From Nocardioides houyundeii (GTDB lineage Bacteria > Actinomycetota > Actinomycetes > Propionibacteriales > Nocardioidaceae), in contig NZ_CP025581.1 in NCBI RefSeq assembly GCF_002865585.1, positions 434,001 through 498,000 of the forward strand: a stretch of 64,000 bases of DNA. The letters are read 5' to 3'. Both the position numbers and the translations under genes were made by a program. Every line of letters begins with the position of its first letter. Positions within the stretch are counted from its first letter, which is position 1. Below are positions 6,030-52,511 of this stretch, in pieces. The notes under the pieces are model-generated. The model did not search any database. It worked only from the letters and a program-made list of their open reading frames with translations, and was not told where the DNA came from.

Positions 6030-6034
6030 GGCGA

Positions 6035-7514: not shown

Positions 7515-7560
7515 GGCCGAGTGGCTCGCGGGTGTCCCCGGCTGGCCCTAGCGTGGACCC

Positions 7561-8241: not shown

Positions 8242-8268
8242 CGCCTCTCGTCAGCGGGGGACCGCCGG

Positions 8269-8637: not shown

Positions 8638-8730
8638 GACTCCCCCTCGTGGGGCCGCGGGGGCGGCCCTCGACCGTCATCGTAGGGGAACCTGAGCCAG
8701 GCGCCGGAGACCTTCCCGGCGCTGAGTGAC

Positions 8731-8736
8731 TAGGCT
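8731..8736 (+). promoter_or_regulatory. Probable fba -10 box
   Basis: TAGGCT, the same hexamer found in front of purC and purL, 39 bases before the fba ATG. Here a leader with a GAGGAG ribosome-binding site (about 8762-8767) follows. No convincing -35 is seen. Confidence 0.35.
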
Positions 8737-8775
8737 GGTGGCGTCGACCGCGAAGATCACCCGAGGAGCCCGCAG

Positions 8776-9810
8776 ATGCCCATCGCCACCCCCGAGCGCT
8801 ACGCCGAGATGCTCGACGCCGCGAAGTCCAAGGGCTTCGCCTTCCCCGCCATCAACGTCTCCTCGTCGCAGACGCTGAACGCCGCGCTCAAGGGCTTCGC
8901 CGACGCGGGCTCCGACGGCATCATCCAGATCTCCACCGGTGGCGCGGAGTACCTCTCCGGCCCGTCGGTCAAGAACATGGTCACCGGCTCCGTGGCCTTC
9001 GCCGCGTACGCCGCCGAGGTCGCGAAGAACTACCCCGTCAACATCGCGCTGCACACCGACCACTGCCCCCAGGACAAGCTCGACGGCTTCGTCCGGCCGC
9101 TCCTCGACATCTCCGCCGAGCGCGTCGCCCGTGGCGAGCTGCCGCTGTTCCAGTCGCACATGTGGGACGGCTCCGCGGTGCCGCTGGAGGAGAACCTGAA
9201 GATCGCCGAGGAGCTGCTCGCCAAGTGCGCCGCGGCCCACATCATCCTCGAGGTGGAGATCGGCGTCGTCGGCGGCGAGGAGGACGGTGTCGCCAACGAG
9301 ATCAACGACAAGCTCTACACCACCCCCGAGGACGCGCTGGCCACGGTCCGCGCGCTCGGCACCGGTGAGAAGGGCCGCTACATGACGGCGCTGACCTTCG
9401 GCAACGTGCACGGCGTCTACAAGCCCGGCAACGTCAAGCTGCGCCCCGAGATCCTCCAGGCCGCCCAGGAGGCCGTGGTCGCCGAGCTCGGCCTGACCGC
9501 AGGCGCCAAGCCGTTCGACCTGGTCTTCCACGGCGGCTCCGGCTCCACCGCCGAGGAGATCGGCGCGGCCGTCGACTACGGCGTGGTGAAGATGAACGTC
9601 GACACCGACACCCAGTACGCCTTCACCCGCCCGGTCGCGGACCACATGTTCCGCAACTACGACGGCGTGCTGAAGACCGACGGCGAGGTCGGCAACAAGA
9701 AGCACTACGACCCCCGCGCCTGGGGCAAGGCCGGCGAGGCCGGCATGGCCGCCCGGATCGTGGAGGCGTGCCAGAACCTGCGCTCGGCGGGCACCACGCT
9801 GGGCGCCTGA
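8776..9810 (+). CDS. fba: Class II fructose-bisphosphate aldolase
   Basis: 344 residues. It catalyses reversible cleavage of fructose-1,6-bisphosphate into dihydroxyacetone phosphate and glyceraldehyde-3-phosphate in glycolysis and gluconeogenesis. The zinc-site motif is seen as ALHTDHCPQDKLD near residues 92-104. The glutamate-rich ILEVEIGVVGGEEDG near 157-171 and the VFHGGSGST phosphate-binding loop near 252-260 are also present, followed by NVDTDTQYAF. Length matches long class II (FbaA) enzymes. GAGGAG lies 8 bases before the ATG. A large hairpin (9831-9920) follows the stop by 20 bases and may be its terminator. Confidence 0.95.
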   Translation: MPIATPERYAEMLDAAKSKGFAFPAINVSSSQTLNAALKGFADAGSDGIIQISTGGAEYLSGPSVKNMVTGSVAFAAYAAEVAKNYPVNIALHTDHCPQDKLDGFVRPLLDISAERVARGELPLFQSHMWDGSAVPLEENLKIAEELLAKCAAAHIILEVEIGVVGGEEDGVANEINDKLYTTPEDALATVRALGTGEKGRYMTALTFGNVHGVYKPGNVKLRPEILQAAQEAVVAELGLTAGAKPFDLVFHGGSGSTAEEIGAAVDYGVVKMNVDTDTQYAFTRPVADHMFRNYDGVLKTDGEVGNKKHYDPRAWGKAGEAGMAARIVEACQNLRSAGTTLGA

Positions 9811-37640: not shown

Positions 37641-37647
37641 GCGGCGT

Positions 37648-38454
37648 TCAGCTGGAGCGGCGCATCGCCCGGACGCCGACCACCAGCCCCAGGGCGGCCA
37701 CGGCCCCCGCGCCGGCGAACCCGGCTGCGATGGTGTCGGCCGGCCACTGCCCGGCGAAGAGGGCGCGCACCGCCTCCACGACGTACGTCATCGGGTTGAG
37801 GTCGGAGGCGACCTGCAGCCAGCGCGGCGCGTCGTCGATCGGCAGCAGCACCCCGGCCAGCAGCAGCACCGGGAACAGCAGCGTCTGCTGGACGGTCCAG
37901 AACATCCAGTCCTGTCCCTTCGAGGCCAGCGCCAGCGCGAACGACAGCGCACCGACGCCCACGCTGAACAGCGCAAGCACCAGCACGCCGACGAGCACGC
38001 CGCCCAGGTGCAGGTCGAAGCTGAACGGCGTGACCACCGCCAGGATGATCGCGGTCTGCATCAGCATCGGCACCACCTCCTTGAGGGCCCGGCCGACCAG
38101 CAGCGCCGGGCGGCGCAGCGGCGAGACGAGCTGCCGCTCGTGTGAGCCGGTCTGCATCTCCTCCATCAGGTTGGCCCCGGTGAAGGAGCCGCCCATCAGG
38201 CAGGTCATGGTGACGATGCCCGGCACGAACCACTGCAGCGCCGACCCGGTCGCCAGGTCCGGCAGCAGCGGGGCGAACAGCCCCAGGAAGACCAGCGGCT
38301 GGATCATCGCGAAGACGACGGCCATCGGCTCGCGCCAGACCGGCTTGAGCTCGCGGTTCATCACGTTCAGGGTGTCGGCGAGGAAGCTGCTGCGGGGGGT
38401 GTCCGCCGCCTGCAGTCCGGTCCGGCTCTGGGTTTCTGTCGTCATCGTGCTCAT
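37648..38454 (-). CDS. ABC-2 type exporter permease (DrrB-like)
   Basis: 268 residues. Six hydrophobic segments and the ABC-2 pattern: REPMAVVFAMIQPLVFLGLFAPL, GGSFTGANLMEEMQTGSHERQLVSPLRRPALLVGRALKEV and a final DLNPMTYVVEAVRALF. That last segment is the consensus ABC-2 signature. It forms the membrane part of an exporter with the preceding ATPase, with which it overlaps by four bases. Antibiotic or lipid export is likely but the substrate is unknown. Confidence 0.88.
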   Translation of the reverse strand: MSTMTTETQSRTGLQAADTPRSSFLADTLNVMNRELKPVWREPMAVVFAMIQPLVFLGLFAPLLPDLATGSALQWFVPGIVTMTCLMGGSFTGANLMEEMQTGSHERQLVSPLRRPALLVGRALKEVVPMLMQTAIILAVVTPFSFDLHLGGVLVGVLVLALFSVGVGALSFALALASKGQDWMFWTVQQTLLFPVLLLAGVLLPIDDAPRWLQVASDLNPMTYVVEAVRALFAGQWPADTIAAGFAGAGAVAALGLVVGVRAMRRSS

Positions 38455-39491
38455 GCCGCCACCTCGGTCTTGTCGTCGGTCTCGGTCGGTGAGTCGTGCG
38501 CCTCGCGCAGGCTGCGGCCCGTCAGGTCCAGGAAGACGTCGTCGAGGGTGGGCCGGACCACCTCGACCCGGGTCACCGGTGCGTGGTCGCCGAACAGGTC
38601 GACCACGAGCCCCGGCACCAGCTCCGCACCCCCGGCCACCCGCAGGGTGATCTCGCTCGCGGTGTGCTCCACCCGGGAGCCCGCGATCCGGCTGGCCCGG
38701 GCGGCGGCCGTGGCCGCGGCGTCGGCGGAGGCGAAGCCCAGCCGGACCAGGTCGCCCAGCCCGGACTTGAGGCGGGTGGCGGTGTCGTCGGCGATCACCA
38801 GGCCGTGGTCGATGACGATCACCCGGTCCGCGATCGCGTCAGCCTCCTCGAGGTAGTGGGTGGTGAGCACGATCGTGCTGCCGGTCTCGGCGTGCAGCCG
38901 CTGCACGATCGCCGCCAGGTTGGCCCGGTTCTGCGGGTCCAGACCCGTGGACGGCTCGTCGAGGAAGAGCACCCGGGGCAGGTGCACCAGGCCCATGGCG
39001 ATGTCGAGGCGGCGCCGCTGGCCGCCCGAGAGCGTGGAGACGTTGCGGTCCACCACGGCCTCCAGGTCGAGCTCGGCGACCAGCTCGTCGGTCCGGCGGC
39101 GGGCCTCGGAGCGGGAGAGCCCGTGGGCCCGGCCCTGGCTGAGCAGCTCGTCGCGGCCGCGCTGCCGGTGACCGGCCCCGTTGCCCTGACCGACGTACCC
39201 GATGGCGCGGCGTACCTCGCGCTGTCCGGTGAGCACGTCGTGGCCGGCCACCGAGGCGCTCCCGGAGGTGGGCGGGATCAGCGTGGTGAGCATCCGCAGG
39301 GTGGTCGACTTGCCGGCCCCGTTGGGACCCAGGAAGGCGACGAGCTCGCCCTGGCCGATCTCGAGGTCGAGGCCGCGGACGGCCTCCACCGGCTGCTTCC
39401 TCTTGGCTGAGCGAGAGGCGAAGTGGCGGGTGAGCCCGCGAGTCACGATCGCCGGCCCGCGGGACGTCTGGGTGTGGGTCGAAGTGGTCAT
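38451..39491 (-). CDS. ABC exporter ATPase (DrrA-like)
   Basis: 346 residues from ATG 39491. Walker A GPNGAGKST near residues 51-59, signature LSGGQRRRLD and Walker B VLFLDEPSTGLD are intact, followed by the TTHYLEEAD switch. The C-terminal 100 residues form a DrrA-type extension. Its permease is encoded next. The ATG is 7 bases after a TAGCGT -10 box on its own strand, so leaderless. The gene is divergent from a WYL regulator, with an inverted repeat between them. Confidence 0.92.
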   Translation of the reverse strand: MTTSTHTQTSRGPAIVTRGLTRHFASRSAKRKQPVEAVRGLDLEIGQGELVAFLGPNGAGKSTTLRMLTTLIPPTSGSASVAGHDVLTGQREVRRAIGYVGQGNGAGHRQRGRDELLSQGRAHGLSRSEARRRTDELVAELDLEAVVDRNVSTLSGGQRRRLDIAMGLVHLPRVLFLDEPSTGLDPQNRANLAAIVQRLHAETGSTIVLTTHYLEEADAIADRVIVIDHGLVIADDTATRLKSGLGDLVRLGFASADAAATAAARASRIAGSRVEHTASEITLRVAGGAELVPGLVVDLFGDHAPVTRVEVVRPTLDDVFLDLTGRSLREAHDSPTETDDKTEVAA

Positions 39492-39498
39492 GACGACC

Positions 39499-39547
39499 AC
39501 GCTAGGAACTCATGCGGTCAGGCTGTGACCTCAATGGAATCTAGTCT
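39499..39547. promoter_or_regulatory. Divergent leaderless promoters with an inverted-repeat operator
   Basis: The 62 bases between the exporter ATPase and the WYL regulator hold TAGCGT (minus strand, 39504-39499) and TAGTCT (plus strand, 39542-39547). Each is 6-7 bases from an ATG. Between them lies GGTCA-N5-TGACC (39516-39530), a natural site for the regulator. Confidence 0.5.
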
Positions 39548-39553
39548 GGGGAC

Positions 39554-40549
39554 ATGAGCACGAGTGCCCGGATGCTGCGGCTGCTGTCCCTGCTGCAGAC
39601 CCACCGCTACTGGCCCGGTGGGGAGCTGTCGCAGCGCCTGGAGGTCAGCCCGCGCACGCTGCGCCGCGACATCGAGCGGCTCCGGGACCTGGGCTACCAG
39701 GTGGACGCGGTCCGTGGGGTCGCCGGCGGCTACCAGCTCCGGGCCGGCGGCTCGCTGCCCCCGCTGCTGCTGGAGGACGAGGAGGCGGTGGCCGTCGCGG
39801 TGGGGCTGCGGTCGGCGGCCGCGGCGTCCGTGGGCGGTATCCAGGACTTCTCGGTGCAGGCGCTGGCCAAGGTGATCGCGCTGATGCCGCCGCGGCTGCG
39901 CCGTCAGCTGGACGCCGTGGCCTCGGAGACCGAGACGCCGGGGCCGTGGGCGGGCGGGCCCGTGGTCGACGCCGGGGTGCTCACCACCCTGGCCCAGGCC
40001 TGCCGCGACCAGGAGCCGGTCACCTTCGACTACTCCGCGGTCGGCGCCGAGACCACGCACCGCCGGGTGGAGCCGCTCAAGATGGTCTCGCTCGGACGCC
40101 GGTGGTACCTGGTGGCCTACGACCGCGACCGGCTGGACTGGCGCAGCTTCCGGCTCGACCGGATCACCGCGCCGGTGCCGGGTGGGCCCCGGTTCCGGCC
40201 CCGGGAGCTGCCCGCCGCCGACGCGCTCTCCTTCGTCCAGGCCGGCATCCGCCGCCGCCCCCAGCGGTACGCCGTCCGGGTGCGCGTCGCCGCCGAACCC
40301 GAGCGGCTGATGGCCCTGACGGGCCGCTGGGCCGAGGTGAGCGCGGTCGAGGGCGGCTGCCTGCTGGAGATGAACACCGACTCGCTCGGCTGGCCGCTGA
40401 TGGTGCTGGGGGAGTGCGGTGCCGACTTCACCGTGGAGTCGCCGCCCGAGCTCGTCACGGCAGTCGCGGAGGTCGCCGCCAGATTCGGCCGCTGTCCCCC
40501 TGACCCACGTTGTGTAACAGCGCCGAGAACTTCCCCGGAAGGCCGTTAA
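39554..40549 (+). CDS. WYL-domain transcriptional regulator
   Basis: 331 residues. An N-terminal winged HTH of the HTH_11 type (RLLSLLQTHRYWPGGELSQRLEVSPRTLRRDIERLRDLGY) is followed by the WYL domain near residues 150-215 (EPLKMVSLGRRWYLVAYDRD, with R-W-Y-L). A C-terminal WCX-like extension comes after it (EPERLMALTGRWAEV). WYL regulators bind nucleotide-like or other ligands. It probably controls the divergent exporter, judged by the shared inverted repeat. Starts 6 bases after TAGTCT, leaderless. Confidence 0.9.
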   Translation: MSTSARMLRLLSLLQTHRYWPGGELSQRLEVSPRTLRRDIERLRDLGYQVDAVRGVAGGYQLRAGGSLPPLLLEDEEAVAVAVGLRSAAAASVGGIQDFSVQALAKVIALMPPRLRRQLDAVASETETPGPWAGGPVVDAGVLTTLAQACRDQEPVTFDYSAVGAETTHRRVEPLKMVSLGRRWYLVAYDRDRLDWRSFRLDRITAPVPGGPRFRPRELPAADALSFVQAGIRRRPQRYAVRVRVAAEPERLMALTGRWAEVSAVEGGCLLEMNTDSLGWPLMVLGECGADFTVESPPELVTAVAEVAARFGRCPPDPRCVTAPRTSPEGR

Positions 40550-40635: not shown

Positions 40636-41415
40636 ATGCACGACATCGTGGGACAGTCCACCGGCCACTCGTGGGCCCACACCCGGCCCCGGCCGCTGGT
40701 GGAGTTCCGTGGCGTCGGTCGCTCCTTCGGCGCCGTGGAGGCCCTCGCCCCCACCGACCTGACCGTGCGCCGCGGCGAGCTGGTCTCCCTGATCGGGCCC
40801 TCGGGCTGTGGCAAGTCGACGCTGCTGCGGCTGGCCTCCAAGCTCGACCAGCCGACGGTCGGCTCCGTCGAGTTCACCACCGACTCCGTCGGGTACGTCT
40901 TCCAGGACGCCACCCTGATGCCGTGGCGCACCGTGCGGCGCAACGTCGGGCTGCTCGCCGAGCTCAGCGGCCTGAGCCGCGCCGGCACCGCCGCGCTGGT
41001 GGACGAGGCGCTGGCCACCGTCGGGCTCAGCGACTTCGCCGACCACCTCCCGCACCAGCTCTCCGGCGGCATGAAGATGCGCGCCTCGCTGGCTCGGTCC
41101 CTGGTGCTCAACCCGGAGGTCTTCCTCTTCGACGAGCCGTTCGGGGCGCTGGACGAGATCACCCGCGGCCGCCTCAACCTGGTGCTGCTGGACCTCTTCC
41201 GCGAGCACAGCTTCGCCGGGCTGTTCGTCACCCACTCGGTCGAGGAGGCGGTCTTCCTCTCCACCCGGGTGGTCGTCATGTCCGCCCGCCCCGGCCGGAT
41301 CACCGAGGAGTTCGACGTGCCCTTCGACTTCCCCCGCAGCCTGGACCTGCGCTACACCCCGCAGTTCGCCGAGCTCGCCGGCCGCGTCGCCAAGGCCCTC
41401 GAGGCGGCGTCGTGA
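40636..41415 (+). CDS. Uptake ABC transporter ATPase (nitrate/sulfonate/NMT1 type)
   Basis: 259 residues. Walker A GPSGCGKST near residues 55-63, a Q-loop YVFQDATLMPWRTV, signature LSGGMKMRASLARSL, Walker B VFLFDEPFGALDE and VTHSVEEAVFLSTRV are seen. This is the SsuB/TauB/ThiZ pattern. AGGAGG lies about 9 bases upstream of the ATG at 40636. A TAGGCT -10-like box is about 35 bases further up (40591-40596). Overlaps the permease by four bases. First gene of the unusual catabolic/biosynthetic cluster. Confidence 0.92.
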   Translation: MHDIVGQSTGHSWAHTRPRPLVEFRGVGRSFGAVEALAPTDLTVRRGELVSLIGPSGCGKSTLLRLASKLDQPTVGSVEFTTDSVGYVFQDATLMPWRTVRRNVGLLAELSGLSRAGTAALVDEALATVGLSDFADHLPHQLSGGMKMRASLARSLVLNPEVFLFDEPFGALDEITRGRLNLVLLDLFREHSFAGLFVTHSVEEAVFLSTRVVVMSARPGRITEEFDVPFDFPRSLDLRYTPQFAELAGRVAKALEAAS

Positions 41416-42224
41416 TCGCCCGAGCCTCCGGCCGCGTCCGCTCGCTGGCCGTGGTCGTCGTCCCACCGCTGCTGGTGCTGCTGGCGGCGCTCGGGGTCTG
41501 GTACCTGATGAGCTACCAGGTGCTGGAGGAGACCGAGAAGTTCCTGCTGCCGCCGCCGCACGAGCTGTTCACCGACGCCCTGATGGTCGAGGAGGTCCGG
41601 GCCGACGTGCTGGACGCCCTGTGGGTGACCACCAAGACGGCCCTGGTCGGTCTGGCGGTCTCGCTGGCCATCGGCGTGGTGCTCGCCGTCGCGATGGCCA
41701 AGGCCCGCTGGATCGAGCGCTCGGTCTACCCGTACGCGGTGTTCCTGCAGACCGTTCCGATCCTGGCGATCGTGCCGCTGGTCGGCTTCTGGTTCGGCTA
41801 CGAGATGTTCGCCCGGGTGCTGATCTGCGTGATCATCTCCCTGTTCCCGCTCATCATCAACCCGCTCCAGGGCCTGCTGAGCGCGGACCGCGGCCTGCAC
41901 GACCTGTTCACCCTCTCGGGGGCCTCCGGCTTCACCCGGCTGATCAAGCTGCAGGTGCCCGCGGCGCTGCCCGACGTCTTCGTCGGGCTGCAGGTGGCGG
42001 CCGGCCTGTCGGTGGTCGGCGCCACCGTCGGCGACCTGTTCTTCGGCCGCGGCGCGATCGGTCTGGGCCTGCTGATGCAGCGCTACAGCTCGCGGCTGCA
42101 GTCCGCGGAGCTGCTGGCCACCGTGATGGTCACCTGCCTGCTCGGGCTGGTCGTCTTCTGGATCTTCGGCGCGCTCGGGCGCCGGTTGGTCGGCCGCTGG
42201 TCGCCGGCCTGGGGAGCGCGCTGA
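41412..42224 (+). CDS. Uptake ABC transporter permease
   Basis: 270 residues, GTG start overlapping the ATPase stop. About six membrane segments and the binding-protein-dependent transport signature near residue 180 (GASGFTRLIKLQVPAALPDVFVGLQVAAGLSVVGA), with the EAA-like loop. Family as in SsuC/TauC/ThiX. Completes the membrane half of the importer. Confidence 0.9.
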   Translation: MIARASGRVRSLAVVVVPPLLVLLAALGVWYLMSYQVLEETEKFLLPPPHELFTDALMVEEVRADVLDALWVTTKTALVGLAVSLAIGVVLAVAMAKARWIERSVYPYAVFLQTVPILAIVPLVGFWFGYEMFARVLICVIISLFPLIINPLQGLLSADRGLHDLFTLSGASGFTRLIKLQVPAALPDVFVGLQVAAGLSVVGATVGDLFFGRGAIGLGLLMQRYSSRLQSAELLATVMVTCLLGLVVFWIFGALGRRLVGRWSPAWGAR

Positions 42225-42285
42225 CGCGTCCTGCCCTCTTCTCGGACCCGCCCCACCCCCGCTCGCCCACCCCGAAGGGACATCC

Positions 42286-43437
42286 ATGTCTGCTCGATCG
42301 CTTCCCGCCCGTTCCACCGCCCTCGCCTCGACGCTGCTGCTGGGGTGCCTGGCGCTGACCGCCTGCGGCTCCGACGACGAGCCCGCCGCAGCCGGCTCGG
42401 GCGACGGCGCGCTCTCCGGCGTCTGCCCCGACACCGTGGTCTTCCAGGCCGACTGGGAGCCTGAGGCCGAGCACGGCGGCGTCTACGAGATGCTCGGCGA
42501 GGGCTACGAGATCGACACCGACGCCAAGTCGGTCACCGGTCCGCTGGTCGCCGGCGGGGAGGACACCGGGGTGGCGCTGGAGATCCGCATCGGCGGCAAC
42601 AGCGTCGGCTTCCAGTCGGCCCAGTCCCTGCTCTACCAGGACCGCGACATCCTGCTCGGCTACGGCCGGGTCGGCGACCAGCTGATCGCCCAGCAGGACA
42701 CCCCGGTGACCGCGGTGATGGCGGCGATGGAGAAGAGCCCGTACGCCGTCTACTGGGACGCCCAGACCTACCCCGACGTCAAGACCATGGGTGACCTCAA
42801 GGCGACCGGCGCCACCATCCACGTCGGCAGCCTGCCGGAGACCTGGATCGACTACCTGGTCGCCGAGGGTGTGCTGGACAAGTCCAAGCTGGACCGCAGC
42901 GACGCCCCCAAGCCCGCCACGTTCGTGGCCGCCAAGGGCAAGGACGCCGAGGTCGGGTTCATCACCGCCGAGCCGTTCATGTACGAGGAGGAGATCGCCG
43001 AGTGGGGTCGCCCCGTCGTGGGCGACCTGGTCGCGGACAACGGCTACCCGGAGTACTTCCAGGCCATCTCGGTGCGCACCTCCGACGTGGAGGCGCAGGC
43101 CGACTGCCTCAAGGCGCTGGTGCCGATCATGCAGCAGGCGCACGTGGACTACGCCGAGGACCCGACCGCCACCAACGAGCTCGTCGTCGAGCTGGTCGAG
43201 GCCTACGACACTGGCTGGGTCTACACCCCCGAGGGCGCCGAGTACGCCCACGACAAGGGACTGGAGCTCGGCATCGTCGCCAACGGCGCCGACGGGGCGA
43301 TCGGCTCGTTCGAGGCCGACCGCGTGCAGACCCTGATGGACATCGTGGAGAAGCACGCCGGTGCCGACCTCGACGGGCTGGGCCCCGAGGACATGTTCAC
43401 CAACGAGTTCATCGACCCCTCGATCTCGCTCGGCTGA
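42286..43437 (+). CDS. Lipoprotein substrate-binding protein, NMT1/SsuA-like
   Basis: 383 residues with a lipoprotein signal (LALTAC, Cys about 27). The mature part has NMT1/THI5-like wording: VVFQADWEPEAEHGGVYEMLGEGYEIDTDAKSV, then VALEIRIGGNSVGFQSAQSLL and a GSLPETWIDYLVAEGVLD hinge region. NMT1-type binding proteins carry pyrimidines, thiamine precursors, taurine or sulfonates. The substrate here is probably a nitrogen compound processed by the genes that follow. A strong hairpin (43468-43503) follows the stop. Confidence 0.88.
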   Translation: MSARSLPARSTALASTLLLGCLALTACGSDDEPAAAGSGDGALSGVCPDTVVFQADWEPEAEHGGVYEMLGEGYEIDTDAKSVTGPLVAGGEDTGVALEIRIGGNSVGFQSAQSLLYQDRDILLGYGRVGDQLIAQQDTPVTAVMAAMEKSPYAVYWDAQTYPDVKTMGDLKATGATIHVGSLPETWIDYLVAEGVLDKSKLDRSDAPKPATFVAAKGKDAEVGFITAEPFMYEEEIAEWGRPVVGDLVADNGYPEYFQAISVRTSDVEAQADCLKALVPIMQQAHVDYAEDPTATNELVVELVEAYDTGWVYTPEGAEYAHDKGLELGIVANGADGAIGSFEADRVQTLMDIVEKHAGADLDGLGPEDMFTNEFIDPSISLG

Positions 43438-43467
43438 CCCACCGCCTCGGCGCACCACCACCGGACG

Positions 43468-43503
43468 TCGTGCCCGGGTCAGTCCGTCCCGACCCGGGCA
43501 CGA
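43468..43503. terminator. GC-rich hairpin between transporter and enzyme genes
   Basis: A perfect 13-bp inverted repeat TCGTGCCCGGGTC/GACCCGGGCACGA with a 10-base loop. There is no T-tract, so this is a stabiliser, attenuator or processing site rather than a full intrinsic terminator. It sits in the 132 bases between the binding protein and the ArcS-motif gene. Confidence 0.5.
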
Positions 43504-43569
43504 CCCCGTGACCCACCCGACCCGCACCCGATCCGCACCCGTCGGATCCGCACCGCCAGGAGTACGTCG

Positions 43570-44655
43570 ATGACCACCACTGACCTGCCCCCCTCCGACC
43601 TGCACCCCGACGCACGTCTGACGTCCTCGCGCCGCAAGATCCGCGCGCCGTTCGTGCTGGACGACTCCATGCGCTTCTACTCCCCGCAGACCAACGTCGA
43701 GGCGCTCGAGCACCCGCGGGTCCGCGCCCTGACCGAGCGCGTGCGCGACGAGTGGACCCCCGCCCCGGTCCCCACCGCCGGCTCCGGGACCCGACTGGCG
43801 CTGCTGGTGCCCTGCACCAAGTACAAGCCCTACGTCACCAGCCGCGAGCACCGCGGCATCAACGGCGCCCTGCTGGCCGCCGGTTGGCGTCCGGTCCGCG
43901 GGTACGACGGCCCGGTCGCACTGCTCTCGGTGCTGGACCCCGGGGAGGACCCCGACGTCCTCAACACCGCGCCGCTGGAGCGGGACGGGGTCGTCCTGGA
44001 CCGGTTCGTGATCTCCGAGCCGCTCGCCCTGGTGCCCTACGAGCTGACCATGTACGTCGACGGGGAGCAGTCGCCCGCCACCTCCTACGACGACCCCGGG
44101 CTCTTCGAGGCCCGCGGCACCTCCATCTCTCCCGAGCGTCCCGACTGCACCGCGACCCAGCGAGCCGACGGCACCTGGGCCTGGGGCCCGGCCGAGCGCA
44201 GCGCCTACGTCGCGATGCACAACGCGATGGCTGACACGCTGAGCACGGCGCTGGGCCGGCTGTCGCCGCACTACCGGGCGATCGTCTCCTGGGTCGCGCC
44301 GGGACTGACCCACCGCAGCTTCCTCGCCGACGCCGCCACCCGGCGTACCGACTCCATCCCGTCCACCCGCATGGGGCTCGACGGACGGGCGATGGCGCTG
44401 CGCGGGGTGCTCGACGCGCTGCCCGGTGCGGTGGAGATCCTGCCCACCAAGGAGCAGCAGGGCGCGGCCCGCGAGCAGCTCGCGACCCGGCTGGCCGCCG
44501 AGGGCCGGGCCAGCGGACCGGGCTCGGTGCGGGCCGTCTACGCCCGCGGTGACGGCCACGACACCCCCCTCGGCCTGCCCGAGCTCACCGCGATGCTGGT
44601 GGAGCGCTTGGACCGGCTCGTGGCCGCCACGGCCTCCGAGCCCGGTGCCGCATGA
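43570..44655 (+). CDS. Protein with archaeosine-synthase (ArcS) core motif, DUF5591-like
   Basis: 361 residues. The key feature is PCTKYKPYVTSREH at residues 81-94. This is exactly PC-x3-KPY-x2-S-x2-H, the motif described for the amidinotransferase ArcS, which joins lysine to preQ0 base in archaeal tRNA. No PUA or TGT domain is seen and the protein is shorter than ArcS, so the tRNA function is unlikely to be retained. The C-terminal half contains VAMHNAMADTLSTALGRLSPHYRAI and RTDSIPSTRMGLDG, conserved-looking but unknown. It overlaps the next gene by four bases. Role in this cluster is inferred to be formation of a nitrogen adduct of a nitrile or similar substrate. Confidence 0.7.
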   Translation: MTTTDLPPSDLHPDARLTSSRRKIRAPFVLDDSMRFYSPQTNVEALEHPRVRALTERVRDEWTPAPVPTAGSGTRLALLVPCTKYKPYVTSREHRGINGALLAAGWRPVRGYDGPVALLSVLDPGEDPDVLNTAPLERDGVVLDRFVISEPLALVPYELTMYVDGEQSPATSYDDPGLFEARGTSISPERPDCTATQRADGTWAWGPAERSAYVAMHNAMADTLSTALGRLSPHYRAIVSWVAPGLTHRSFLADAATRRTDSIPSTRMGLDGRAMALRGVLDALPGAVEILPTKEQQGAAREQLATRLAAEGRASGPGSVRAVYARGDGHDTPLGLPELTAMLVERLDRLVAATASEPGAA

Positions 44656-46105
44656 GCGCCGTGGTGGCCGGTGACGTGCGCCAGGTCCGGGCTCCGGCCG
44701 ACGGCGAGCTGCTCGGCGAGGTCGCCGCGCTGGCGGTCCAGGCGGTGCCCGAGGTGGTGTTCACCGCCCGCCGGGCGCTGCCCGACTGGGCCGCCGCGGC
44801 CCCGCACGCCCGGGCCGACCTGCTCCTCGCCGCCGCCGACGAGCTGGCCGGCATGGTGGAGGAGCTCGCCGTCCGGCACGCGAGGGAGTCCGGCAAGATC
44901 GCTCCGCAGGCGCTGCACGAGGTCCGCGGCGCGGTGGCGCTGCTGCGCCGCAACGCCGAGCTGGGCCGGATGGCCGCGGGCGAGCTCGCCCCCACCGGCA
45001 GCCTGCCGGGCGGGGAGCGGGACATCACCCTCGTCGAGCGGGTGCCGCTCGGCGTGGTGGTCGCGGTCATCCCCTTCAACTTCCCCGTCGAGCTGACCAT
45101 GGAGAAGGCCGCGGCGGCGCTCGCGGTCGGCAACGTGGTGGTGGTCAAGCTGCCGCCGCAGAACCCGCTGACCACAGCGGCCGTCCTCGACGTCCTGGCC
45201 CGCCACCTGCCGTCCGGGGTGGTCCAGCAGGTGTACGCCGACGTGCCGGCGTCCGCGGCGCTGTGCAGCGCTCCGGGCGTGGACGCGGTCTCGCTGACCG
45301 GCTCGGTGGCTGCGGGCCAGGCGGTGGCCGCAGCAGCCGCCCCGCTGCTGCGCCCGCTGCACTTTGAGCTCGGCGGCAACGGTGCCGCCATCGTGCGCGC
45401 CGACGCCGACCTGGAGCACGTGGTCTCGGAGTCGCTGCGCGGTCGGCTGCTGATGAACGGCCAGGCGTGCGCGGCCACCAAGCGGCTGATCGTGCACCGC
45501 TCGGTCGCCGCCGAGCTGACCGAGCGACTGGTCGCGGCGCTGGCCCCGGTGATCCCGACCGACCCGCTCGCCGAGGGTGCCCTGCTCGGCCCGCTGATCG
45601 ACGCCGCCTCCGCGGCCCGGGTCGAGACCCAGGTGCAGTGGGCGGTTGACGCCGGGGCCCGGCGGGTGCTCGGGAGGGCGCCCGACGGCGCCTTCTTCGC
45701 GCCCACCGTGCTGGCCGACGTACCGCACCAGGCAGCGGTGCTGCACGACGACGAGATCTTCGGCCCGGTCTTCCCGGTCGCCGTCGTCGACGACGACGAG
45801 CAGGCCCTCGCCCTGGCCAACGACACCCGGCTGCGGCTCACCGCCGCCGTCTTCTCCGCCGACCTGCCCACCGCGCTGGCGATGGCGGGACGGCTGGACT
45901 TCGGGGAGTGGTGGTCAACGGCACCAACAACTACCGGCCGCCGATCGTGCCGTTCGGCGGCGTCGACCTGGCCGGAGCCGGCCGCGAGGGCCTGGGCTGG
46001 ACGCTCTCGGAGCTGACCCGCACCAAGTTCATCGCCCTGCGCGGCGTACGCCCGGCGGGCACCGTCCCGGTGCCCGCGACCCTGAGCACCGGAGGAACCC
46101 CGTGA
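44652..46105 (+). pseudogene. Aldehyde dehydrogenase broken by one frameshift
   Basis: About 484 residues across two frames. The first (to about 45908) carries NFPVELTMEKAAAALA, the FELGGNGAA segment with the general-base Glu near residue 240, and GQACAATKR with the catalytic Cys near 272. It ends in LDFGEW, whereas the second frame continues VVNGTNNYRPPIVPFGGVDLAGAGREG, the typical ALDH end. One missing base near 45906-45912 explains the break. NAD(P)-dependent oxidation of an aldehyde, presumably the semialdehyde made by the next-gene aminotransferase. Overlaps both neighbours by four bases. May be an assembly error. Confidence 0.85.
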
Positions 46106-47352
46106 TCGACCCCGCCCCCACGATGACCGAAGCTGAGGCGGACTCCTACCGCGACCGCTTCGTGGCCCACCTGTCCCAGACCGTGCCGGGTCGCAAGGAG
46201 TTCGTGGTGGCCAGCGCCTCGGGCTGCTGGGTCACCACCACCGACGGCCGCTCCTACCTCGACATGACCTCGGGCATCGGCGTCGCCAACGTCGGCCACT
46301 GCCACCCCGACGTGGTGGCCGCGATCACCGCCCAAGCCGCGCGCTACTCCCACGTCAACGTCTACGGCCGGTTCGTGGTCCCCGAGCAGGTCGAGATGGT
46401 GGAGCGGCTGGTCTCGGTCGCCGGCGGGCTCGACATGGCCTACCTGACCTCCTCGGGCGCCGAGTCCACCGAGTGCGCCCTCAAGCTGGCGCGCAAGCAC
46501 ACCGGGCGGCCCAAGTTCGTCGCGTTCGAGCGCAGCTACCACGGCCGCACCCTGGGGGCGCTGTCGGTGAGCTGGCGCGAGGAGTGGCGCAAGCCCTTCG
46601 AGCCGCTGCTCGAGGAGGTCGCCTTCGCGCCGTACGACGACCTGGCCGCCGCCGCGGCGGTGATCGACGAGCACACCGCCGCGGTGATCGTGGAGCCGAT
46701 CCAGGGCGAGGGCGGCATCCGGGTGCCCTCGGACGACTTCCTGCCCGGTCTGCGCCGACTGTGCGACGAGGCCGGAGCCCTGCTCATCATCGACGAGGTC
46801 CAGGGCGGCATGGGCCGTTCCGGCCAGTGGTTCGCCCACCAGCACTGGGGCGTGCTGCCCGACATCATCACCACCGCCAAGGCGGTCGGCGGCGGACTGC
46901 CGCTGGGTGCGGTGCTGGCCCGCTCGGAGGTCTTCGAGACCTTCACCGACCCGCCGCTGTCGCACCTGACCACGATGGGCGGCAACCCCGTGGCGTGCGC
47001 CGCCGGGATCGCGGCCTTCGACATCATCGCCGACGGACTCCTGGACCACGTCGACTCCGTCGGCGAGCACCTGCGCGGTGCCCTGCGCGGCCTGGCCGCC
47101 GACTTCGGCGGCCTCGTCGTCGACGTCCGCGGCAAGGGCCTGTGGAACGCCATCGAGCTCTCCGTGGACGCCAACCCGGTGGTGCGCCGGCTCCAGGAGC
47201 TGGGGGTGCTGGTCGGCTCGGTGCTCAACCAGTCCGGGACCATCCGGATCATGCCGCCGCTGGTGATCAGCGTGGCCGAGGTCGACCAGTTCGTCGCCGC
47301 CCTGCGCACCGTGCTGGCCGCCGTCGCGGCCCAGGAGGGCACGGCGGCATGA
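46102..47352 (+). CDS. Class III aminotransferase (PLP, omega-amino acid type)
   Basis: 416 residues. PLP-binding features: MAYLTSSGAESTECALKLARKHTG near residues 113-136, then ERSYHGRTLG, IVEPIQGEGGI, LLIIDEVQGGMGRSGQW and the PLP-lysine motif TTAKAVGGGLPLG near 256-268. Typical of 4-aminobutyrate/beta-alanine transaminases. GTG 46102 with GGAGGAA just upstream is preferred over ATG 46123. Coupled by overlap to the aldehyde dehydrogenase and the deaminase. It likely converts a terminal amine to an aldehyde. Confidence 0.9.
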   Translation: MIDPAPTMTEAEADSYRDRFVAHLSQTVPGRKEFVVASASGCWVTTTDGRSYLDMTSGIGVANVGHCHPDVVAAITAQAARYSHVNVYGRFVVPEQVEMVERLVSVAGGLDMAYLTSSGAESTECALKLARKHTGRPKFVAFERSYHGRTLGALSVSWREEWRKPFEPLLEEVAFAPYDDLAAAAAVIDEHTAAVIVEPIQGEGGIRVPSDDFLPGLRRLCDEAGALLIIDEVQGGMGRSGQWFAHQHWGVLPDIITTAKAVGGGLPLGAVLARSEVFETFTDPPLSHLTTMGGNPVACAAGIAAFDIIADGLLDHVDSVGEHLRGALRGLAADFGGLVVDVRGKGLWNAIELSVDANPVVRRLQELGVLVGSVLNQSGTIRIMPPLVISVAEVDQFVAALRTVLAAVAAQEGTAA

Positions 47353-48773
47353 GCACCGAGTTCCTGGTGCGCGGTCGCTACGTGCTGACCATGGCCGGGC
47401 TGCCCGGCCCGGGCGAGCGGGACCGTACGCCGGGGGCGCACCTGGACGGCGTGCTCGCCGACGCGTGCGTGCACGTGCGCGACGGGGAGATCGTCGCGGT
47501 CGACGACGCCGCGCGCCTGGTTGCCGCCCACCCCGCGTTGCCGGTGCACGGTGACGGCACCGGCCTGGTCATCCCCGGTCTGGTCTCCACCCACACCCAC
47601 CTCTCCGAGGGCCTGGCCACCGGGATGGGCTCGGAGCTCTCGCTCTTCGAGTGGGGCGAGGGGATCGTCGGCCCCGTCGGGGCGGTGCTGACCCGCGAGG
47701 ACGCCGCCGAGGGCACCGCCCTCAAGGCGGTCGAGATGCTCATGTCGGGCGTCACCTGCGTCAACGACATGTTCTGCCACAACCACGTGGGCTCCCGGGC
47801 CAGCCTGGGCGTGGTCGACGGGCTGACCCGGGCCGGGCTGCGCGGGGTGGTCTCCTTCGGGGCCGAGGACGTGGGCCTCGCCGAGCCCGGCAGCGAGGCC
47901 GCCGCCGCGGTGGTCGCCGACGTGCTGGCCGAGCAGGTGGACCTGGCCACCCAGGTCGCCGGCGCCCCGCTGCTGGAGTTCAGGTACGGCGTCGGCACCC
48001 TGCTGGGCCAGACGGACGAGCTGCTGGCCGCCGGCGTCGACCTCTGCCGGCAGCGCGGCTGGGGTGTGCACACCCACCTGGCCGAGGTGCGCGAGGAGCT
48101 CACCGCCGCCCGCGCCCGGTGGGGACACCGCACGGTGGAGCACGCCGAGCGCCTGGGGATGTTCGAGCGGCCGCTCATCGCCGGGCACGGGGTCTGGCTC
48201 ACCGAGGCCGACGTCGCCTCGCTGGCGCGCCACGACGTGGCGATCGCGCACAGCCCGGTGGCCAACATGATCCTCGGCTCCGGTGTCTGCCCGGTGCCGC
48301 GGCTGCGTGCCGCCGGCGTGACCGTCGGCATCGGCACCGACGGTGCCGCCTCCAACGACGGCCAGGACATGCTCCAGGCGCTCAAGATGGCGGCGCTGCT
48401 GCAGAAGGTGCACCACCTCGACCCGTTGGTCGTCGACGCCCTCGACGTGCTGACGATGGCCACCATCGACGGTGCCCGCGCCCTGGGCCTGGACCACCTG
48501 GTCGGCTCCCTGGAGCCCGGCAAGCGCGCCGACCTGGTGCTGCTCCAGGACACCGTGGAGGTGGCGGTGCTGCACGACCCGGTCTCCCAGCTGGTCTACG
48601 GCGCCTCGCCGCGGGCGGTCCGCGACGTCTGGGTCGACGGCGTCCAGGTGGTCCTCGACCATGCCTGCGTCTCCGTCGACGAGGCCGCTCAGATCGAGCG
48701 GTGCCGTCCGCTCGCCGCCCGGCTCGGCCGCGACGCGGGGCTGGTGGCCGCGGGGCACTCGGTGATCGGGTGA
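47349..48773 (+). CDS. Amidohydrolase, ATZ/TRZ-type aminohydrolase
   Basis: 474 residues. Metal-site motifs: STHTHLSEG near residues 80-88, HTHLAEVREE near 240, GHGVWL near 278, and IGTDGAASNDGQDML near 328-342. These match the ATZ/TRZ and S-adenosylhomocysteine/5'-methylthioadenosine deaminase group. A zinc- or iron-dependent deaminase (or dechlorinase) of a ring nitrogen base is expected; guanine, cytosine or modified purine substrates are all possible. Overlaps neighbours by four bases on both sides. Confidence 0.9.
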   Translation: MSTEFLVRGRYVLTMAGLPGPGERDRTPGAHLDGVLADACVHVRDGEIVAVDDAARLVAAHPALPVHGDGTGLVIPGLVSTHTHLSEGLATGMGSELSLFEWGEGIVGPVGAVLTREDAAEGTALKAVEMLMSGVTCVNDMFCHNHVGSRASLGVVDGLTRAGLRGVVSFGAEDVGLAEPGSEAAAAVVADVLAEQVDLATQVAGAPLLEFRYGVGTLLGQTDELLAAGVDLCRQRGWGVHTHLAEVREELTAARARWGHRTVEHAERLGMFERPLIAGHGVWLTEADVASLARHDVAIAHSPVANMILGSGVCPVPRLRAAGVTVGIGTDGAASNDGQDMLQALKMAALLQKVHHLDPLVVDALDVLTMATIDGARALGLDHLVGSLEPGKRADLVLLQDTVEVAVLHDPVSQLVYGASPRAVRDVWVDGVQVVLDHACVSVDEAAQIERCRPLAARLGRDAGLVAAGHSVIG

Positions 48774-50350
48774 CCCGCCGTACCGCGGGGATCGTCGGGG
48801 GCGGGCACAACGCCCTCGTCGGCGCCGTCACCCTGGCCCGGGCAGGTCTGGACGTCACCGTGCTGGAGCAGGCTGACGAGGTCGGCGGCTGCCTGTGGAC
48901 CCAGCGGCACGCCACCGGGGTGCTGCTGGAGCGGGGAGCCTGGGAGCACGGCGGGGTGCGCGAGGTGGCCGACGCCCTGCGGCTCGCCGAGCACGGCCTG
49001 GAGTACGTCGACCACCCGCTGCTGGCCGGCTTCGTGTTCGGTGACGGCGAGCGCCGGCTGTTCTGGTCCGACGTGGACCGCACCGCCGCGGAGCTCGGCG
49101 CGGACGGGCCGGCGTACCGGGCACTGGTGGAGCGGGCCGGGTCGCTGTTCGGGATGCTCGACGCCTTCCCGGCGCCGCCGACGCTGACCGAGGTGGCCGC
49201 GGCGCTGGCCGGCCTGCGCGGCGGCGACGACCTCTTCCGCTCGCTGCTGATGCCGGCCGAGACCTTGCTCTCCGCCACCTTCGAGGACCCCCACCTGGTG
49301 ACCGCCCTGGGCCTCTACGCCTCCCACTCCCAGGTGCCGGTGTGGGCACCCGGCTCGGGGATGATGGCGCTGGTCCTGCCCAGCGGGCACGGCCACACCT
49401 CCTGCCGCCCGGTCGGCGGGTCGGGGGCGCTGCCGGCCGCGCTCCGGGCCGCGCTGGAGGCGGCCGGTGGCCGGGTGCGCACCGGCGCGCTGGTGACCGC
49501 GCTGGCGCCCGCAGCAGCGGGTGGCGGGACCGTGACCCTGGCCTCGGGCGAGCAGCTGGCGTTCGACGTGGTCGTCTCCTCGGTCGACCTGCCCCGCACC
49601 TCGGCGCTGCTGGGCGCCGCGGCGCCCCGGATGCAGCGCTCGTCCGTGGGGCTGCACAGCGGCCACTTCAACATCTGCGAGCTCACCGTCTCGCTGGTCT
49701 ACTCCACCCCGCCCGACCTGCCCGCGATGGCGGTCGACCCGGCGGCGGTCTGGTTCGCCGCCGACCGGCTCGAGGACCTGCGTCGCGGCTTCGGCGAGGT
49801 GGTCGCCGGCCGGCTGCCGTCCTCGCCCTGGTCGATGGTGGGCCAGGTCGCCCAGCCCCCGGACGTCGCCGGGGGAGCGGTCTGGCTCTCCTCCATCGTG
49901 CCGCTGCACCGGGCCGACGGCCCCTGGACGCCGGTCGCCGAGCGCGCCGCCGCCGACCACGTCATCGACTCCGTGGCCCGCATCCTGGGGGTCGACCTGC
50001 GAGCGCACCTGGTCGACGTGGTGGTCAGCGGACCGGCCACCTGGGGGGAGCGGCTCGCCGGCGACGGCAACCCCAACCACCTGGACAACACCATCGACCA
50101 GCTGCTCGGCTGGCGTCCGCCGGGCCACGCCGACCTGACCACCGAGCTCGACTGGCTCCACCTCACCGGAGCCGGCCAGAACCCCGGCGGCGGCCTCAGC
50201 GGCGCCTCCGGCCTGGCGGCGGCCGCGAGCGTCCTCTCCGCCGGGCCGGGCCGGCGTACCGGCGCGGTCTCCCGCCTCTCGGCCGAGGTCCGCGGGCTCA
50301 CCCGCGGCCTGTCCGCCTACCGCTCGATGCGCAAAGGAACCCTGCGATGA
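48770..50350 (+). CDS. FAD-dependent oxidoreductase, PYROXD2/phytoene-desaturase-like
   Basis: 526 residues. N-terminal Rossmann motif GIVGGGHNALVGAVTLARAG near residues 7-26, with VLEQADEVGGCLWT after it. Later PVGGSGALPAALRAALEAAGGRVRTGALV and the C-terminal LHLTGAGQNPGGGLSGASGLAAA (second FAD motif) are present. This is the wording of amine-oxidase/CrtI-like NAD(P)/FAD proteins close to PYROXD2. It would oxidise a C-C or C-N bond of the intermediate. GTG start overlapping the deaminase stop. Confidence 0.88.
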   Translation: MTRRTAGIVGGGHNALVGAVTLARAGLDVTVLEQADEVGGCLWTQRHATGVLLERGAWEHGGVREVADALRLAEHGLEYVDHPLLAGFVFGDGERRLFWSDVDRTAAELGADGPAYRALVERAGSLFGMLDAFPAPPTLTEVAAALAGLRGGDDLFRSLLMPAETLLSATFEDPHLVTALGLYASHSQVPVWAPGSGMMALVLPSGHGHTSCRPVGGSGALPAALRAALEAAGGRVRTGALVTALAPAAAGGGTVTLASGEQLAFDVVVSSVDLPRTSALLGAAAPRMQRSSVGLHSGHFNICELTVSLVYSTPPDLPAMAVDPAAVWFAADRLEDLRRGFGEVVAGRLPSSPWSMVGQVAQPPDVAGGAVWLSSIVPLHRADGPWTPVAERAAADHVIDSVARILGVDLRAHLVDVVVSGPATWGERLAGDGNPNHLDNTIDQLLGWRPPGHADLTTELDWLHLTGAGQNPGGGLSGASGLAAAASVLSAGPGRRTGAVSRLSAEVRGLTRGLSAYRSMRKGTLR

Positions 50351-51414
50351 CTGTTCTCCCGCCCGCCGCCCCGACCCCCGCCCCGACCCCCGCCCCGGCC
50401 GCCGACGGCGAGCTCGGTGTCTTCGACGTGATCGACCTGATGACCGGCTACCAGGGCGCAGCCACCCTGACCGCCGCCGCGCGGCTCGGGGTCTTCGACC
50501 TCCTGGTCCAAGGTCCCCGGCTGACCGAGGAGGTCTCGACCCTCCTCGAGCTGGACCCGCTGGCCACCCGTGCGCTGCTGGACTCCCTGGTGGGCCTGCA
50601 CCTGCTCCAGGTCGACGACGACCTCTACTTCGTCACCCCGGTCGCGGCCCGGCTCACCCACGGCGGTGACCTGCGCCTGGTCGCGGAGAAGGAGGCGTTC
50701 TTCGCCCGCGCCTGGCTCGACCTGGAGGAGTCGGTCCGGTCCGGCACCCCGCGGCTCGACCCGTGGGCCTCGCGCCTGGTCTCCGACCCGGCACAGGCCC
50801 GTGAGTTCCTCCGCGCGCTGCTGGTGCTGGCCGACGAGACCGGCCCCGACCTGGCGCGGCTGGTCTCGCCCGGGATGCGGGTGGCCGACCTCGGCGGGGG
50901 CCTCGGGGCGTACGCCGTGCGGCTCGCCGCGGCCGGGGCCTCGGTCACCGTGGCGGACCTGCCGCTGGTCGCGCAGTGGTGCGCCGAGGAGGTCCCGGAC
51001 CGGGTCGCGGCGCTGGGGCTGGGCGCGGAGGTGGCCGGGCTGGTCACGGTGCGCCCGGTCGACCTGCTCGCCGTCGAGGCAGCCTCGACGCTGGGCGCGG
51101 GCTACGACGTGGTCCTGCTCTCCCACCTGCTGCACGACCTCACCGACGAGGACTGCCACCGCGTGCTGTCGCTGGCCGCCACGATCGTGGCACCCGGAGG
51201 GCGGGTGGTGGTCTTCGAGCTGCCAGGGGACCCGCCGGGGGCGTTCGGCCCGATGTTCGACCTGATGATGGAGGTGGAGACCCCGGGCCGGGCCCGGCGG
51301 CTGTCCGAGCTGGTGGGGCTGATGACCGACGCCGGGTTGACCGATGTGGCCGTCGACCCGGCGTACTCGTTGCCGCACGGGGTGGTCGTCGGGCGGCCGG
51401 GGGATACGGTCTAG
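50347..51414 (+). CDS. SAM-dependent O-methyltransferase family protein
   Basis: 355 residues. After a Pro/Ala-rich start comes a dimerisation-type helical domain (GYQGAATLTAAARLGVFDLL, LDPLATRALLDSLVGLHLL). The SAM-binding motif VADLGGGLGAYAVRLAAAGASVTVADLPLV lies near residues 179-208, followed by YDVVLLSHLLHDLTDEDCHRVL. Matches the plant-type/hydroxyneurosporene O-methyltransferase family. ATG overlaps the oxidoreductase stop. Acts last in the coupled run, so it may methylate the product. Confidence 0.9.
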   Translation: MTVLPPAAPTPAPTPAPAADGELGVFDVIDLMTGYQGAATLTAAARLGVFDLLVQGPRLTEEVSTLLELDPLATRALLDSLVGLHLLQVDDDLYFVTPVAARLTHGGDLRLVAEKEAFFARAWLDLEESVRSGTPRLDPWASRLVSDPAQAREFLRALLVLADETGPDLARLVSPGMRVADLGGGLGAYAVRLAAAGASVTVADLPLVAQWCAEEVPDRVAALGLGAEVAGLVTVRPVDLLAVEAASTLGAGYDVVLLSHLLHDLTDEDCHRVLSLAATIVAPGGRVVVFELPGDPPGAFGPMFDLMMEVETPGRARRLSELVGLMTDAGLTDVAVDPAYSLPHGVVVGRPGDTV

Positions 51415-51482
51415 AGGGAGCAGGAGCGACCCGGGGCACGCCGCGGGTCGGGTCCTGAGGGCCACCAACGAGAGGCAACCTC

Positions 51483-52511
51483 ATGCACGTGGGCGTCGAC
51501 AGCTTCGTCTCCACCGTCACCGACCCCAGGACCGGCCACGTGGTCGGCCCGGCGGAGCGGATGGAGCACCTGCTGGAGGAGATCGCGCTCGCCGACCGGG
51601 TGGGGCTGTACTCCTTCGGCATCGGCGAGCACCACCGCAGCGAGTACTACGACTCCGCGCCGCCGGTCATCCTGGCTGCCGCGGCCGCGCGCACCGAGCG
51701 GATCCGGCTGGGCAGCGCGGTGACCGTGCTCAGCGCCGCCGACCCGGTGCGGATCTTCCAGCAGTTCGCCACGCTCGACCTGATCTCCAAGGGCCGCATC
51801 GACCTGGTGGTCGGCCGGGGCTCCTTCACCGAGGCGTTCCCGCTGTTCGGCCTGGACCTGGCCGACTACGACTCGCTGTTCGCCGAGAAGCTGGAGCTGC
51901 TGCTCAAGATCCGGGACGAGACCGAGGTGACCTGGTCCGGGCGGCACCGCCCGGCGCTGCGGCGGCAGCCGGTCTACCCGCGCCCCCTGCAGGACCCGTT
52001 GCCCATCTGGGTCGGGGTGGGCGGCACCCCGGAGTCCTTCGTCCGCGCGGGACTGCTCGGCCTGCCGCTGATGGTGGCGATCATCGGTGGCGAGCCGCGC
52101 CAGTTCGCGCCGCTGGTCGACCTCTACCGGCGGGCGGGCGCCGAGGCGGGGCACCCGCCGGAGCGGCTGCAGGTTGGCATCCACGTCTTCGGCTTCGTCG
52201 CCGAGAGCACCCGGGCGGCCGCCGACACCATCTATCCCGGCTGGGAGGAGATGTTCGCCAAGATCGCCCGGGAGCGCGGGTTCGCCCAGCCCAGCCGGCG
52301 CCAGTTCGACGCCACCTCCGGGCCGGACGGGGCCTTCTTCATGGGTGACCCGGAGACGGTCGCGACCAAGATCCGGCGCGTCTCGGAGCAGCTGGGCGGG
52401 GTGGACCGGCTCTCGCTGCAGATGACCAACCCGCGGCTGGCCCACGAGGACCTGCTCCGCGGCATCGAGCTGCTCGGCACCGAGGTGGCGCCCCGGGTGG
52501 CCTCGGTCTAG
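51483..52511 (+). CDS. LLM-class (luciferase-like) flavin-dependent oxidoreductase
   Basis: 342 residues: a TIM-barrel LLM protein. VGLYSFGIGEHHRSEYYDSAPPVILAAAAARTERIRLGSAVTVLSAADPVRIFQQFATLDLISKGR near residues 40-105 is the conserved F420/FMN barrel. DVVVGRGSF-type wording and GTPESFVRAGLLG follow. No ribosome-binding site is strong (AGAGGCAACCTC precedes ATG 51483). It follows the methyltransferase after 69 bases, so it may or may not belong to the same transcript. Oxidation of an unknown substrate. Its TAG stop shares the bases CTAG with the stop of the convergent fdhD. Confidence 0.88.
   Translation: MHVGVDSFVSTVTDPRTGHVVGPAERMEHLLEEIALADRVGLYSFGIGEHHRSEYYDSAPPVILAAAAARTERIRLGSAVTVLSAADPVRIFQQFATLDLISKGRIDLVVGRGSFTEAFPLFGLDLADYDSLFAEKLELLLKIRDETEVTWSGRHRPALRRQPVYPRPLQDPLPIWVGVGGTPESFVRAGLLGLPLMVAIIGGEPRQFAPLVDLYRRAGAEAGHPPERLQVGIHVFGFVAESTRAAADTIYPGWEEMFAKIARERGFAQPSRRQFDATSGPDGAFFMGDPETVATKIRRVSEQLGGVDRLSLQMTNPRLAHEDLLRGIELLGTEVAPRVASV

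Follow-up and report, generated by a model that had tools for sequence, protein, structure and literature searches.

What does a bacterium do with an operon that joins an ABC importer to a protein carrying the signature motif of archaeosine synthase (ArcS), and that places both among enzymes acting on amines, aldehydes and nitrogen-containing rings? The question is raised by nine genes on the + strand at positions 40636-51414 of the window, that is, of the whole 64-kb stretch of DNA analysed here, where open reading frames together with Pfam and NCBIfam matches give three importer genes followed by six enzyme genes:

40636-41415, + strand: ATPase of the ABC importer, nitrate/taurine/sulfonate-like (Pfam ABC_tran, 2e-29; NCBIfam ntrCD/TauB-like, below cut-offs)
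41412-42224, + strand: permease of the ABC importer (Pfam BPD_transp_1, 3.9e-19)
42286-43437, + strand: substrate-binding lipoprotein of the importer, weakly NMT1-like (NMT1 18.2 bits, cut-off 20.5)
43570-44655, + strand: ArcSL, a DUF5591/ArcS-core-like protein of 361 aa and the hallmark of the cluster (ArcS motif; predicted AF0587 fold)
44652-46016, + strand: aldehyde dehydrogenase, frameshifted near its 3' end (Pfam Aldedh, 5.4e-105, residues 11-427)
46102-47352, + strand: class III aminotransferase of acetylornithine/putrescine type (Pfam Aminotran_3, 1.1e-109)
47349-48773, + strand: TRZ/ATZ-type amidohydrolase of the purine/triazine deaminase superfamily (Pfam Amidohydro_1, 4.2e-55)
48770-50350, + strand: FAD oxidoreductase, CrtI/CrtO/amine-oxidase-like (Pfam Amino_oxidase, 4.6e-17)
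50347-51414, + strand: O-methyltransferase, Methyltransf_2 with a dimerisation domain (Pfam Methyltransf_2, 5.1e-11; Dimerisation, 2.1e-10)

The importer and six enzyme genes had been recognised in a sequence-only reading of this DNA, which the ORFs and the Pfam and NCBIfam matches bear out with corrections: it placed the transaminase before the dehydrogenase, whereas the dehydrogenase (44652) comes first, and it had all six enzyme genes overlapping by four bases, which holds exactly at four of the five junctions and fails at the fifth, between dehydrogenase and aminotransferase, where such an overlap exists only when the dehydrogenase is followed into a second frame. The dehydrogenase ORF stops at 46016, and its usual C-terminal stretch lies in the other frame, running to a stop at 46105 that overlaps the aminotransferase GTG at 46102; this frameshift, which the earlier reading had passed over, is either an assembly error or a true lesion. 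Its 454 aa compare with a median of 471 aa for the homologous ORFs of other loci, and intact copies therefore exist. The permease and ATPase ORFs also overlap by 4 bases.

Judging from the homologies of these genes and their neighbours elsewhere, we lean, with slightly more confidence than doubt, towards an operon that would serve the nutrient-scavenging breakdown of an imported, nitrogen-rich heterocycle, most likely a guanine-type compound with a ring guanidine unit, for which a 7-substituted 7-deazaguanine (queuine, preQ1 or preQ0) is the first candidate. We infer this catabolic role and guanine-like substrate, together with the step order and the ArcSL chemistry proposed below, against a background of observed gene content, conservation of the set, homologies and island-like distribution. 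The importer ATPase and permease both exceed their Pfam cut-offs and resemble nitrate/taurine/sulfonate types, none of them over a curated NCBIfam cut-off; of the earlier description as an NMT1-type importer, the importer stands and the NMT1 label fits weakly, the binding protein scoring somewhat below the cut-off of that family and having no Pfam match at 0.001. Binding proteins 51-70% identical to it occur in 8 related loci. The aminotransferase finds its best NCBIfam match in acetylornithine transaminase (404 bits, cut-off 457), and acetylornithine and putrescine aminotransferases are among the types resembled in the PDB. The deaminase scores 187.8 bits for Amidohydro_1 (cut-off 25), 291 bits for the NCBIfam TRZ/ATZ family (cut-off 540) and 229 bits for the 8-oxoguanine deaminase model NF006055 (cut-off 532); none of the 25 NCBIfam models listed reaches its cut-off, which leaves the protein outside the function-named equivalogs (guanine, 8-oxoguanine, MTA/SAH deaminase), and in the PDB comparison, with 4f0r and 7ww2 among its relatives, it is nearer to MTA/SAH-type than to guanine deaminases. 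The FAD enzyme reaches 96.5 bits for NCBIfam CrtO, far below the cut-off, and has weak PDB relatives, including a weak match to putrescine oxidase.

The core enzyme had been credited with the ArcS motif PC-x3-KPY-x2-S-x2-H, which is indeed present at ArcSL residues 81-94 (PCTKYKPYVTSREH). On the alignments the motif is not a chance occurrence, because its residues P, C, K-x-KPY, S, E and H are invariant in 29/29 and 20/20 ArcSL homologues, in sets hand-picked from the search lists; in alignment A2 the row for locus L031 lacks its C-terminal end, cut off by the coordinates chosen. ArcSL itself scores 23 bits against Pfam DUF5591 (PF17884; gathering score 26), all 29 members of alignment A1 match DUF5591 at E<=0.1 (best 3e-8), and the predicted structure of ArcSL has the fold of the solved DUF5591 protein AF0587 (2q07). 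The worry that the motif might sit in an unrelated family devoid of the catalytic residues is thus answered by the shared motif and predicted fold. At E<=0.001, one search places bacterial relatives of ArcSL in 525 protein clusters and another, of possibly overlapping content, in 669; among the matches listed they are mostly annotated as hypothetical proteins, and the second list names the alphaproteobacteria Bradyrhizobium, Kaistia and Martelella. No paper on DUF5591 was found in the literature searched, and among the matches listed for ArcS, AF0587, deazaguanine or queuine catabolism, and enamidase with isochorismatase, a description of the cluster is absent.

Whether the genes belong together can be judged from their company in other genomes, and the suspicion that they might not be conserved together elsewhere is dispelled by the order ArcSL, aminotransferase, deaminase, FAD enzyme and methyltransferase, which is kept in 16 of 26 loci. 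These loci comprise 24 from Actinomycetota and related MAGs, obtained by scanning genome contigs with two exact peptide patterns that under-sample distant relatives, and two added from a phylum survey in which ArcSL occurs in 3 of 396 genomes, namely the window's own and two more. Counted by tblastn at an identity of at least 38%, over 26 loci that include the query suppliers L005, L006, L007 and L020 and many truncated contigs, the neighbours are the aminotransferase (20), a DUF1989 protein (20), an enamidase-like protein (19), the FAD enzyme (17), the methyltransferase (17), a class II aldolase (17), the deaminase (16), a hydantoinase-like protein (13), AA_synth (13), an isochorismatase-type protein (13), a nitrilase-family protein (12), a second deaminase (12), the binding protein (11), the ATPase (9), the permease (8), the aldehyde dehydrogenase (8), an HDAC-like protein (7) and GntR (6). 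Where ArcSL is preceded by 7 kb or more of sequence and followed by 6.5 kb or more (n = 16), the aminotransferase is found in 14 loci, the FAD enzyme and the methyltransferase in 13 and the deaminase in 12. As a chance control, 21 loci, 18 of them of 3-4 kb and three of 25 kb chosen for an enamidase-like gene, and too short for a strong control, gave matches at 38% identity or more to the enamidase (3), AA_synth (2) and the ABC ATPase (2) and to nothing else; across the remainder of the 64-kb window, ABC ATPases alone matched the cluster proteins.

The partner enzymes are, by homology, of types that strip nitrogen from rings, ureas and guanidines. The enamidase-like protein corresponds over its full length to the solved enamidase 2vun (3.8e-108); the hydantoinase-like protein matches L- and D-hydantoinases and reaches no NCBIfam cut-off; the isochorismatase-type protein has its nearest relatives in two unnamed hydrolases and in N-carbamoylsarcosine amidohydrolases, and the nitrilase-family protein in NIT2 and N-carbamoylputrescine amidohydrolase. 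DUF1989 takes in a carboxyguanidine deiminase (PMC11271267) and a TMAO demethylase domain (NCBIfam; PMC12560246). Two versions of the cluster can be told apart: a compact one, seen in the window, L002 and L017, and larger ones that also carry ring-opening genes, L006 being the fullest example. Among five genomes searched, only that of L006 holds close homologues of its hydantoinase and enamidase; the other four give partial matches of 28-32% to the hydantoinase and short stretches of the enamidase, and the genomes with the compact form are without close homologues of either. In the Thermomicrobium locus L052 (11326-13110) and the Agrobacterium vitis locus L053 (11351-13146), both plasmid-borne, AA_synth and enamidase-like genes lie adjacent, with other catabolic genes beside the pair and no ArcSL match, and the two may form a smaller module acting together. 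In L008, the enamidase-like and DUF1989 genes are separated by eight kilobases (921-9244), whose ORFs resemble, by eye, type III CRISPR-Cas (Cmr/RAMP) genes.

The combination reaches beyond the Actinomycetota. On the Rhizobium plasmid locus L050, an ArcSL of 42% identity lies in a packed gene run that begins with an HpaB monooxygenase (11088) and ends with an ABC ATPase (28771); the locus also has an amidase over the PRK08310 cut-off, a flavin reductase and a PuuE-allantoinase-like protein (317 bits, below the cut-off of 424.6), and one gene downstream of ArcSL stands an 8-oxoguanine deaminase over its NCBIfam cut-off (618.3 versus 532 bits). Compared with their actinobacterial counterparts, the deaminases are 30-32%, the aminotransferase 27%, the dehydrogenase 32% and an HDAC-like segment 35% identical; since the relationship is so distant, the gene combination seems to have been retained, or reassembled, across a long evolutionary distance. 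Further downstream in L050 lie an adenosine deaminase over its cut-off, a BiuH-like protein and an NMT1 binding protein, which may be outside the cluster. In locus L031 a divergent ArcSL (46%) is accompanied by HDAC-like and nitrilase-family genes and by an ABC importer of the PnrA-like (Bmp) kind; such importers are known to serve purine nucleosides, which is no proof of a nucleoside substrate here.

In the route that we propose, the ABC importer would bring in a guanine-type base or a nucleoside-like compound, and ArcSL would act on a C-N centre of this substrate, probably through the motif cysteine, by analogy with enzymes acting on the nitrile of preQ0. For one of these, QueF-like, a thioimide band at about 376 nm has been reported with preQ0 (PMC5485725). 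The aminotransferase and the aldehyde dehydrogenase could then take an amine through the aldehyde to the acid, and the TRZ/ATZ deaminase would remove the ring amino group. In the fuller clusters, the enamidase would open a lactam-enamide ring and the hydantoinase-like enzyme a ureide ring, with the N-carbamoyl amidases, the DUF1989 protein and the nitrilase-family amidase releasing nitrogen; because close hydantoinase and enamidase relatives are missing, the compact version may harvest only part of the nitrogen or pass the ring on to other enzymes. A guanine-type ring would explain at once the 8-oxoguanine deaminase, the PuuE-like protein, the hydantoinase and the relation to ArcS, and the enzymes found next to ArcSL in related loci are in line with the earlier suggestion that the cluster takes up and converts a modified base. 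Several points count against such a ring: the deaminase appears nearer to MTA/SAH-type relatives and stays below all NCBIfam cut-offs; the genomes with the compact form (the window's own and those of L002 and L017) have no close homologues of the ring-opening enzymes; no purine, preQ1 or guanidine riboswitch was found in the window or in 27 loci at the Rfam gathering thresholds; and the studied ArcS needs a nucleoside and not the free base, being inactive on the preQ0 base, slow on the nucleoside and good on its 5'-phosphate (PMC11298593). The sole riboswitch in the window and these 27 loci is a glycine aptamer in L002 (688-786, - strand, 55.2 bits), near one end of the locus and far from the cluster.

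A more specific form of this proposal, which we hold only tentatively, is a dedicated breakdown of 7-deazaguanines (queuine, preQ1, preQ0 or their nucleosides), the first of its kind, in which ArcSL, the aminotransferase and the dehydrogenase would process the 7-side chain, the 8-oxo form would arise through an oxygenase or the FAD enzyme, an 8-oxoguanine-deaminase-like enzyme would take the ring amine and the enamidase would open the lactam-enamide; on chemical reasoning, an 8-oxo-7-deazaguanine would present precisely the kind of lactam-enamide on which an enamidase acts. The operon could also be read as degrading an arginine- or polyamine-derived guanidino or amidine compound, such as an imidazolone or an agmatine-like alkaloid, in which case the amidine would be the target of ArcSL and the deaminase would split off an alkylamine. 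The aminotransferase resembles acetylornithine and putrescine aminotransferases, the nitrilase-family protein resembles N-carbamoylputrescine amidase, the FAD enzyme weakly matches putrescine oxidase and an HDAC-like protein accompanies 7 of the 26 loci; indeed, the HDAC-like, aminotransferase and nitrilase-family enzymes would suit a polyamine-like substrate equally well. We nevertheless consider this unlikely, as the enamidase, the hydantoinase and the two TRZ/ATZ deaminases, together with the 8-oxoguanine deaminase above its cut-off in the Rhizobium locus, point to a purine- or pyrimidine-type ring.

The FAD enzyme and the methyltransferase do not easily fit breakdown, neither having a step assigned in the general route, which counts against catabolism and is where a small biosynthetic cluster, one that turns an imported base into an O-methylated natural product, would draw its strength: an O-methyltransferase and a CrtI-like FAD enzyme lie in the operon, and each is found near ArcSL in 17 of the 26 loci. 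The building of a natural product, which the sequence-only reading had offered as an option, is less likely than breakdown because the enzyme types accompanying it in other genomes are hydrolases and deaminases such as serve to open nitrogen rings and strip them; these dominate the wider neighbourhood, no PKS, NRPS or similar core biosynthetic enzyme was found among the proteins scanned, and by Pfam the genes of 40636-51414 encode an importer and no exporter, all of which makes biosynthesis improbable. Least probable is that ArcSL modifies preQ0, as the base or in tRNA or DNA, in the manner of archaeal ArcS, its neighbours supplying or processing the lysine adduct. The motif and predicted fold are held in common, but the full-length ArcS model NF040592 gives ArcSL 20.1 bits against a cut-off of 440, aligning positions 271-320 of 575, the neighbours look catabolic, and the complete host genome of 3.84 Mb has no match to QueC (TIGR00364) or tRNA-guanine transglycosylase (TGT; TIGR00430), which argues against home-made preQ0 and tRNA modification. 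The nitrile or lysine-coupling chemistry suggested earlier is not supported by these findings, and the studied ArcS did not act on free preQ0 base (PMC11298593). Among six ArcSL genomes searched, of which the host's is stated to be complete, QueC exceeds its cut-off in one and TGT in two, the L002 genome having both.

Of known systems, four come closest to the cluster. With archaeosine synthase, ArcSL shares the motif and, in its predicted structure, the core DUF5591 fold of AF0587, whereas it is shorter (361 aa against a model of 575 positions) and belongs to a catabolic-looking operon in a genome without QueC or TGT matches. Creatinine breakdown employs a deaminase, a hydantoinase and an N-carbamoyl amidase in sequence, and the creatinine/N-methylhydantoin and reductive pyrimidine pathways have a ring deaminase, hydantoinase, N-carbamoyl-amidase, class III aminotransferase and aldehyde dehydrogenase in common with the ArcSL loci; these add ArcSL, the enamidase, DUF1989, the aldolase, the FAD enzyme and the methyltransferase, and the window is without the ring-opening enzymes. 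The enamidase of nicotinate fermentation (2vun) resembles its counterpart in the related loci, which is not in the window and stands in another pathway context. The window deaminase belongs to the superfamily of 8-oxoguanine deaminase without reaching that model, whereas the member in the Rhizobium locus does. A large ArcS-related bacterial family thereby gains a testable setting, namely a conserved uptake and ring-degrading gene set in Actinomycetota and Alphaproteobacteria. Should the substrate prove to be a 7-deazaguanine, this would show where such abundant modified bases end up in nature, and the ArcS core fold would represent a C-N enzyme for deazaguanines that serves tRNA modification in archaea and nutrition in bacteria; should it be a different cyclic guanidine, the operon would still define a new way of scavenging nitrogen and give the ArcS core a new role.

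Within its genus the cluster is island-like, because its flanks match same-genus relatives while its interior matches few. ArcSL is missing from all 36 other same-genus and all 21 same-order genomes searched; in 39 other same-genus genomes, the left flank (about 37645-40490) and the gene to the right (about 51480-52500) match several relatives at 73-87% DNA identity, and between 40.65 and 51.4 kb the matches listed cover only the ATPase, the aminotransferase and an amidohydrolase paralogue from the window's own genome. Gene transfer is the simplest explanation. Among the matches listed, the two flanks do not lie side by side in any same-genus genome, as they would at an empty site. Directly after the cluster, at 51483-52511, lies a luciferase-like monooxygenase of the Atu2307/SP_0267 family (TIGR03858, 481 bits, cut-off 462), whose DNA is 84-87% identical in several same-genus genomes and which therefore looks like flank and not cluster. 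On the other side, 37648-40549 holds, in divergent arrangement, an ABC-type ATPase (- strand), a likely permease (- strand) and, by eye, a WYL-type regulator (+ strand), in DNA common to same-genus genomes.
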